Assembly: GCA_027064025.1 (NCBI GenBank)
Contig: JAMOQL010000208.1
Coordinates: 1-38,086 of the forward strand
Direction of reading: 5' to 3'
Source of the DNA: Bacteroidales bacterium
Lineage (GTDB): Bacteria; Bacteroidota; Bacteroidia; Bacteroidales; JAFGXI01
DNA length: 38,086 nt
The notes below the pieces were generated by a model, which saw only the letters and a program-made list of their open reading frames with translations, was not told where the DNA came from and did no database searches. Below are positions 7,634 through 11,458 of this stretch, one piece after another. The position numbers were made by a program, and so were the translations under genes. How positions within the stretch are numbered: position 1 is the first letter of the stretch; each line of letters starts with the position of its first letter.

Positions 7634-8203
7634 ATGAGAAAATATATCTTGTTAACTTTGTGGGTTGTTTTTGGGGTAGAAACCATAGAGGCTCAGGTTA
7701 AAGTTAATCCGAATGTGGGGGTTACGTTTTCAAAATTATCGGATGGGGCATCTACAAAAATTCGCTCTTCATACGTAGTAGGGGTAGATGTTAGAATAGG
7801 AGGAACCTTAAATTTTATTCCTGGACTTTATTTTGGAAATGTAGGGACCGATATAGATTATAATAAAAATTCAGTCACTTATCAGTTTGATAATTCTATA
7901 AATACTTTGCAATTAAGAACCTTATTGGGTTTAAATATTGTGAATACAAAAGTATTAAGGATAAGAGCAATTGCAGGACCAACTTTACATTGGACTGTAA
8001 AATCGTTCGATATAGAGCAAAAGAATATTAATACAGCTATTGCTTTTTTGAATTTCGGAGCAGGGGTTGATTTGGGAATATTAACTTTGGATTTAAGGTA
8101 TGAATATGGCTTAACCAATGTTTTTGACGAATCGGGTCCGGAAAATATTAAAATTGACGCTAAAAATAATATCTTAATCTTTTCAGTCGGGTTGGTTTTT
8201 TAA
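7634..8203 (+). CDS. Outer-membrane beta-barrel (porin-like) protein
   Basis: Signal-like N-terminus, alternating beta-strand pattern, ends in aromatic residue (FSVGLVF). Confidence 0.6.
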   Translation: MRKYILLTLWVVFGVETIEAQVKVNPNVGVTFSKLSDGASTKIRSSYVVGVDVRIGGTLNFIPGLYFGNVGTDIDYNKNSVTYQFDNSINTLQLRTLLGLNIVNTKVLRIRAIAGPTLHWTVKSFDIEQKNINTAIAFLNFGAGVDLGILTLDLRYEYGLTNVFDESGPENIKIDAKNNILIFSVGLVF

Positions 8204-8237: not shown

Positions 8238-9368
8238 ATGAAAATTATTATTGCAGGAGCCGGAGAGGTAGGCTTACATCTAACAAAAATGTTTAGTGTA
8301 GGCGAAGAGCATAATATTGTTATTGTAGATGCCGATAGTAGTAAAAGTGAATCTATTAACAGTCGTTATGATGTATTAACTGTAACGGGGTCGGCAACTT
8401 CGATAGCTGTTTTAAAAGAGATTGGAATGAGTAATTCCGATTTGTTTATTTCGGTAACAGAAAAAGAGGAAACTAATATTACAGCTTGTACTCTTGCAAA
8501 AAAATTAGGTGCAAAGAAAACGATAGCTAGAATAGATAATCAAGAATATTTATCGTATCAGAATAAAAAAATATTACAAGAGATTGGTGTAGATCATGTT
8601 ACATATCCTCAGAAATTAGCAGCTCTAGAGATTGTCAATCTAATTAGAGAAACAGGAGTTACCGAGTCGTATGAATTTGCGGGAGGTAGATTGTCATTTT
8701 TTGCCATAAAATTAGAAAAGAACGCTTCTGTTATTGGAAAAACGTTAGAGGAAATTAACAGAACAAAATCATTAAATTATCGTGCTGTTGCTATCGAGCG
8801 AGATGAGAAAACAATAGTCCCAAAAGGGAAAGATATTTTTGAGTTGGGAGATATCGTATATGTATTATCTAATAAAGAGGGCGTCGAAGAATTAATGAAA
8901 AGTTCAGGTAAGGAACATATCGATATTAATGATGTGATGATACTTGGAGGGAGTAGAATAGGAACCCGAACGGCCAAAGAACTTCAAAGTCATTTTAATG
9001 TAAAACTGATTGATTCAGACGAGCAAAAATGTTTAACTATTTCGGATCAATTGTCAAAAACTCTTGTTCTTAATGGAGACGGTAGAGATACTGAATTGCT
9101 TGAAGAAGAAGGTATTAAGAAAATGGATGCTTTTATTGCAGTAACCGATAATTCTGACACCAATATTATTGCTTGTTTATTAGCCAAAAAGTTAGGAGTA
9201 AAAAGAACTATTGCCGAAATAGAAAACGAAGATTATATTCAGATAGCAGAAAATATAGGTATCGATACCATTGTAAATAAAAAGTATTTAGCTGCAAGTA
9301 GTATTTTTGCTTATACTCTAGATGCCGAAGTAAGCTCAATGAAGTATTTGATGGGTACTGATGCCTAA
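8238..9368 (+). CDS. trkA: Trk system potassium uptake protein TrkA, interrupted by in-frame TAA (9366-9368)
   Basis: Two RCK_N modules (MKIIIAGAGEVGLHLTKMFS; VMILGGSRIGTRTAKELQ) and TrkA_C. Reading continues without frameshift after the stop to TAG at 9576-9578. Confidence 0.9.
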   Translation: MKIIIAGAGEVGLHLTKMFSVGEEHNIVIVDADSSKSESINSRYDVLTVTGSATSIAVLKEIGMSNSDLFISVTEKEETNITACTLAKKLGAKKTIARIDNQEYLSYQNKKILQEIGVDHVTYPQKLAALEIVNLIRETGVTESYEFAGGRLSFFAIKLEKNASVIGKTLEEINRTKSLNYRAVAIERDEKTIVPKGKDIFELGDIVYVLSNKEGVEELMKSSGKEHIDINDVMILGGSRIGTRTAKELQSHFNVKLIDSDEQKCLTISDQLSKTLVLNGDGRDTELLEEEGIKKMDAFIAVTDNSDTNIIACLLAKKLGVKRTIAEIENEDYIQIAENIGIDTIVNKKYLAASSIFAYTLDAEVSSMKYLMGTDA

Positions 9369-9578
9369 ATATTAGAATTTGTAGTTCACGAAAATTCATT
9401 AATCACTCAAAAAGAATTAATGCACATTAAGTTTCCACAAAATGCAATAATCGGTGGTGTTACTAGAGATAAAAAGAGTTTTATTGCAGTTGGGTCAACG
9501 CTTATACAAACTGGAGATAGAGTTGTCGTTTTTGCTTTAGCAGAAGCCGTTCACGATTTAGAAATTATTTTTAAGTAG
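9369..9578 (+). pseudogene. Orphaned C-terminal TrkA_C segment of trkA, in the same frame as the upstream ORF
   Basis: Translation ILEFVVHENSLITQKELMHIKFPQNAIIGGVTRDKKSFIAVGSTLIQTGDRVVVFALAEAVHDLEIIFK* has the typical TrkA_C ending (IIGGV...GDRVVVFAL). Confidence 0.85.
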
Positions 9579-9703: not shown

Positions 9704-11458
9704 ATGAAGAAGTCAATATTTATTTCAATTTTATCAATAAGTTTCTTCCTTTTAGGAATGAGCTCTTGCGATAAATTAGATACAAAAACTGCAGATAGTT
9801 ATATTTCAAATTACGTGAAAACAACAATTACAGGTGTTGTTTACGATGAATCTCATAATCTTTTACAAGATGTAGAAGTAACCGCATATGGGCGAGTTAA
9901 AAAAACAGACATGAATGGCGTTTTTGTTTTTGAAGATCTAATGGTTCCCAAAAGTAAGTGTTTTATAGTAGTAAAAAAAGATAATTATTTTGCAGTAATG
10001 CGATCTAGAACACCGATTATTAATGATGTAACAAGATTAGATGCCCATTTAATTAGTTATAATGGAGTTGTTGCCGAAACCCATATTTTTTCTACAGGGG
10101 CAGCTAGTTTAGTTGCTCTTAGCGACGGTTCATCGATAGATTTTACAGGTTCATCTTTTATAGATAAATATGGTAATGCGTATAATGGACAAATTACACT
10201 TCGTACAGCGGTGCTCGACGCAAGTGGCGAAGACTATTCTAGACGTGTGCCAGGAGGAGATCAATCGGGGGTTGATAATGGAGAAGAAATGTTTTTAGAT
10301 ACACGTACTGGAATAATGATTGAACTTACAGATGGAAGTGGAAATGCATTAAATCTTGCATCTTCTTCGACTGCTTTAATGAAGGCCCTAATACCACCAG
10401 CGTTGCAAGGAACATCTCCAGGGAATATTCCAATGTACTATGCTTCAACTTCAAGTCCAAATAATAATAGAGATGGTGATGCCGACGAAAATAATAATGA
10501 GTATGAAATGACTCTTGGGCATTTCTCATTTTGGTCAACACAAATAGCAAATCCAGATTTTGGAATTATTAATTGTAGGGTTATTGATGCAAATAATATA
10601 CCTCTAGTTGGCGTTCGTGTTCAAGTAGGAAATGCATATGGCATTACAGGGAATAATGGCGCCTTTAGAATGAAAGTCCCAACAGGTATGGCAATGGATG
10701 TTGCCGTACGTTCAGCAGATTTTTTTGGTTTCTCGGCTTTATCAAACGAGTCAGCTTGGAGTAATGGTGAATCTCGTTTTGTAGAATTACAATTACCAAA
10801 TTTAGACCATGCTAAAGGAATTATTGTAGATTGCGAAGGAAACCCATTAGCGGCTAATGTAAGTTTAGCTTGGAGTGCTTATGTATCGAACACCTTTACC
10901 AATAATGGTATTTTCGATTTACCTTTTTCAGTAGGATCAAATTATCAATTGCATGTAATAACAGCTAGCGTTGACACCTTTATGTCTGTTAATTTACAAT
11001 CAGGAGTTAATAACTTAGGCGATATTTCTATTTGTTCAGAGCCATTTGTTCCCTCTGTTATGAATACCGTTAGAGTAGATTCTGCAGGAACTGGAGTTAT
11101 TTTTAATTATTCAAGTTTTTATTCTTCTGAAGATGGGCATTTATATAGAGACCCTGTTAGTTTAGATCCTACAAAAACGTTTATTTCGGTATCTGGGAAC
11201 GATGGCGATTTTCAATTGGATTTAATGGGCGTCTATTCTGTAGGAACCTATGATATTAATTCAGATGGCTTGAGTTGTTACTTTATGAGTAATAGTCCGA
11301 GTAATTCTTATCAAATAGAAAGCGGAACAGTAACGATAACTCAATACGGTAATGTTGATGGGATTATTAAAGGTAGTGTTATCGGAACAACTACGTATAA
11401 CGATGATGTAACAATTAACTTTGAAGTTCATCGGTCTGCGGATGTTGTTGTGAATTAA
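9704..11458 (+). CDS. Lipoprotein with carboxypeptidase regulatory-like domains
   Basis: Lipobox LLGMSSC; repeated TGVVYDESHNLLQDVEVTAYG / CRVIDANNIPLVGVRVQVGNAYG-type CarboxypepD_reg-like segments. Confidence 0.65.
   Translation: MKKSIFISILSISFFLLGMSSCDKLDTKTADSYISNYVKTTITGVVYDESHNLLQDVEVTAYGRVKKTDMNGVFVFEDLMVPKSKCFIVVKKDNYFAVMRSRTPIINDVTRLDAHLISYNGVVAETHIFSTGAASLVALSDGSSIDFTGSSFIDKYGNAYNGQITLRTAVLDASGEDYSRRVPGGDQSGVDNGEEMFLDTRTGIMIELTDGSGNALNLASSSTALMKALIPPALQGTSPGNIPMYYASTSSPNNNRDGDADENNNEYEMTLGHFSFWSTQIANPDFGIINCRVIDANNIPLVGVRVQVGNAYGITGNNGAFRMKVPTGMAMDVAVRSADFFGFSALSNESAWSNGESRFVELQLPNLDHAKGIIVDCEGNPLAANVSLAWSAYVSNTFTNNGIFDLPFSVGSNYQLHVITASVDTFMSVNLQSGVNNLGDISICSEPFVPSVMNTVRVDSAGTGVIFNYSSFYSSEDGHLYRDPVSLDPTKTFISVSGNDGDFQLDLMGVYSVGTYDINSDGLSCYFMSNSPSNSYQIESGTVTITQYGNVDGIIKGSVIGTTTYNDDVTINFEVHRSADVVVN

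Follow-up and report, generated by a model that had tools for sequence, protein, structure and literature searches.

An early in-frame stop in the trkA gene of a Bacteroidales bacterium, most probably a new mutation or an assembly artefact

In the 38,086-nucleotide stretch of DNA analyzed here (the window, which is contig C208 of its assembly), a single trkA gene, encoding a potassium-transport regulator, is cut at codon 377 by an in-frame TAA, beyond which the frame stays open and encodes the last domain of the protein. In this metagenome-assembled genome the early stop most probably reflects either a new mutation or a mistake in assembly. We consider it probable that the stop is a real, very recent and lineage-private nonsense substitution in a trkA that is otherwise ordinary and single-copy, carried by a Bacteroidota-type bacterium. 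Nothing in the data suggests a new mechanism, and the finding is accurate but ordinary.

The interrupted trkA gene

The locus consists of the following parts.

8238-9368, + strand: first open part of trkA (376 aa plus TAA), comprising the whole of RCK domain 1 (N1, C1) and half of RCK domain 2 (N2)
9366-9368, + strand: in-frame TAA, codon 377, within the linker that joins N2 to C2
9369-9578, + strand: remainder of trkA, the second TrkA_C (C2) domain, 69 codons with its own TAG at 9576-9578

The preliminary description of this DNA gave the same coordinates, sequence and frame. Identification of the gene relies on profile matches to the two pieces. The first part alone scores 473.7 bits against the NCBIfam TrkA profile NF007038, above the equivalog cut-off of 374, and covers profile positions 1-375 of 445; the tail takes up the same profile at position 377 and follows it to 444. 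Upstream of the stop, Pfam detects two TrkA_N domains and one TrkA_C, and the tail alone gives a further TrkA_C match (43.2 bits, cut-off 27). The domain order over both pieces is thus that of TrkA (NF007038, PRK09496; Pfam TrkA_N and TrkA_C, each twice), but the four domains do not share one uninterrupted frame, as the second TrkA_C lies past the TAA. The first piece is 46-58% identical to close relatives among its top matches. By sequence, the gene is clearly a TrkA orthologue with an incomplete predicted product. The same frame remains open for 69 codons beyond the TAA (9369-9575), a run with a chance probability of ∼0.7%; the TrkA_C match in the tail removes chance altogether as the origin of this open run.

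The tail displays no decay, as the preliminary description held. It retains each of the six columns that never vary among relatives, and each of the ten nearly invariant ones (at least 93% conserved). The ratio of tail to first-part identity to relatives is 0.888, compared with a mean of 0.957 (sd 0.058, lowest 0.876) in the relatives themselves; the relative identity of the tail is therefore at the low end of, yet inside, the range of intact proteins. A leave-one-out count gives three invariant residues lost from the first part, against 0 to 5 lost by relatives. Either any loss of function happened too recently to leave a trace in the sequence, therefore, or the stop is not real.

TrkA across the order

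The order was surveyed through 149 genomes, one per species. At a TrkA match threshold of 1e-15, 121 TrkA matches were obtained, distributed over 112 genomes; 116 of the matches are near-full-length and 5 are partial. Only the copy in the window has an internal stop among the 116, making the stop private to this lineage with the relatives intact; the truncation is thus not a family trait. The preliminary description had named homologues that naturally end at GTDA as the case that would overturn its reading; neither these nor any other naturally short TrkA is present among the 116 near-full-length copies. An apparent second broken trkA in genome G054 was rejected, as its gap consists of scaffold N positions, and the partial matches in G138 and G145 are probably contig edges. 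No close relatives were found by scanning genome contigs.

The residue at the stop column was compared in 29 aligned relatives with full-length TrkA. The glutamate proposed in the preliminary description is indeed the commonest residue (20 relatives), but aspartate (7) and glutamine (2) also occur. The alignment thus does not single out one ancestral codon.

The remaining 37 of the 149 genomes harbor no TrkA match at 1e-15. Together with the one same-genus genome compared (G001), which has no TrkA, these genomes indicate that loss of TrkA is tolerated in the group. The G001 genome encodes a KtrB-type channel, and its only match to TrkA is a weak one to a single-RCK protein. Its contigs preserve the flanks of trkA, with a PLP enzyme and adenine deaminase on one (C295, L091) and the lipoprotein and TPR/SpoIIE genes on another (C181, L092). 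Both contigs end in the stretch where trkA would lie, one ∼280 bases past the adenine deaminase and the other ∼220 bases short of the lipoprotein, and the contig ends contain no trkA sequence; G001 was therefore set aside as a synteny reference. It is likely that trkA is absent from G001 at the locus between the adenine deaminase and the lipoprotein.

Genomic context and potassium uptake

The genes on either side of trkA in the window are as follows.

7634-8203, + strand: upstream neighbor, an outer-membrane beta-barrel protein (Pfam OMP_b-brl_2)
9704-11458, + strand: downstream neighbor, a putative lipoprotein with a carboxypeptidase-regulatory-like domain, not trkH

The lipoprotein has a weak match, under the cut-off, to TIGR04134 (radical SAM-associated lipoprotein), and is 44% identical to its counterpart in the same-genus genome, compared with 68% for the nearby adenine deaminase.

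The absence of trkH from the vicinity, reported in the preliminary description, holds for the whole 38,086-nucleotide window. An intact TrkH of 481 aa is encoded elsewhere in the genome, adjoining tpiA on contig C136 (G000:C136:42317-43570), and is ∼65% identical to the trkH product encoded next to trkA in relative G002. In 22 of the 29 relatives trkH lies beside trkA, whereas in the window genome the two are on separate contigs, each away from the contig ends, indicating that the operon was split in this lineage. The rest of the assembly contains neither a second trkA nor a strain copy of the locus.

A second potassium-uptake system is also present. A KtrA-type single-RCK protein and a KtrB-type channel are split between two contig ends, those of C15 and C249, with the channel gene preceding the KtrA-type gene. 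These contig ends (loci L002 and L039) overlap by 132 bases at 99.2% identity and can be joined.

Predicted consequences of losing C2

Solved homologues of the interrupted protein come from TrkA of Vibrio parahaemolyticus (4j9u, 6v4j-6v4l); relative to TrkA, the product as coded lacks C2. The Vibrio ring is built by N1-N1 and N2-N2 contacts, N1 and N2 also contact TrkH, and C1 moves together with C2 as a flexible unit that is unresolved in the ATP state (PMC6987127). TrkH alone is open ∼70% of the time, and Escherichia coli without TrkA is depolarized (PMC6987127). If the stop is real, the product would be a TrkA of 376 residues that retains N1, C1 and N2 and is missing the last subdomain, C2. 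Such a protein may be degraded, unstable or poorly assembling, and TrkH would lose its normal nucleotide control. Potassium uptake would be covered by KtrA/KtrB, and the truncation may be tolerated by the cell because this system is also present.

Weighing the explanations

A recent mutation is supported by the presence of one stop with an intact tail and no other damage, by the private nature of that stop, and by the lack of another trkA in the assembly. The locus resembles recent bacterial nonsense pseudogenes in its single stop, undecayed downstream frame, restriction to one species and redundant function elsewhere, and no difference from such pseudogenes was found. The view of the preliminary description that the loss is very recent or an assembly error fits on both counts, given the single stop, the undecayed tail and the absence of the stop from relatives. 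In the one consensus sequence that exists, an error would give the same picture as a real nonsense mutation. An artefact, in which a miscalled base or the allele of a minor strain entered the consensus of a metagenome-assembled contig and trkA is intact in the living population, is the second and less likely possibility. The assembly is fragmented and slightly contaminated (3.02 Mb in 304 contigs, 95.6% complete, 6.27% estimated contamination), the rest of trkA is without decay, and the stop is common to no relative. However, 407 kb of this assembly was sampled, with 328 non-overlapping ORFs (100 aa or longer), and among them trkA is the sole ORF with an in-frame continuation of at least 45 codons that is not accompanied by an early start or an overlapping neighboring ORF. 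A single unexplained continuation in 407 kb points neither to recoding across the genome nor to an assembly full of errors. Base errors with such an effect are therefore uncommon here, and the bin holds no second copy of the locus that would reveal strain mixing. Elsewhere in the assembly, contigs C67 and C276 (L052 and L053) carry the same Thr-Tyr-Gly tRNA cluster at 92% identity over 291 bases, which would reflect two separate loci or a mixture of strains in the bin.

The preliminary description also raised the prospect that the product works in its truncated form. A protein in which N1-C1-N2 functions without C2, perhaps with altered gating, would keep the two subdomains that bind nucleotide as well as both TrkH-contacting surfaces, in line with the location of the TrkH contacts and ring interfaces of the Vibrio protein in N1 and N2 (PMC6987127). 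The Vibrio nucleotide contact Asp283 aligns with D281, and the HN2 contacts Asp286 and Glu293 align with D284 and E291, all three of which are retained. Their retention shows no more than a recent loss, none of the 116 TrkA copies ends at this point, and removal of C2, which normally pairs with C1, should expose C1. A working truncated protein is accordingly doubtful, and a naturally functional TrkA that lacks C2 and has been uncoupled from the trkH operon is more doubtful still.

Explanations that rescue the tail by translation fare worse. Read-through or decoding of the stop, which would yield some full-length TrkA, is very improbable, despite an undamaged frame past the stop; this suggestion of the preliminary description gained no support. 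Of 39 tRNA matches, 38 have an assigned anticodon, and none of these 38 has the anticodon UUA that would read UAA, in a set that is incomplete, as neither a Gln nor an Asp tRNA was called. TAA also terminates 20 of the 26 other main ORFs in the window, no orthologue carries the stop, and the 407 kb sample contains no similar case. Stop reassignment and a suppressor tRNA were rejected on the tRNA calls and on the use of TAA in the window. A split gene, in which C2 would be made as a polypeptide of its own and associate with the 376-aa protein, is the most remote of these readings. The tail is an intact domain, but no ATG, GTG or TTG precedes its codon 18, and a start at or after that codon would cut off the first strand of the domain; no relative has such a split. 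Separate translation of the tail was rejected for want of a usable start. The lack of an early start in the tail and of a UAA-reading tRNA, together with TAA as the usual terminator, makes recoding, suppression and a split gene unlikely.

Significance

The finding serves mainly as a quality note on this assembly, from which automatic annotation would give a TrkA of 376 aa or a pseudogene. Should the short form be active, the gene would provide a natural test of the role of the last RCK subdomain, and a functional TrkA without C2 would mean that C2 is dispensable for gating TrkH. If the nonsense mutation is real, it would represent one more loss of Trk in an order in which a quarter of the sampled genomes are without TrkA.
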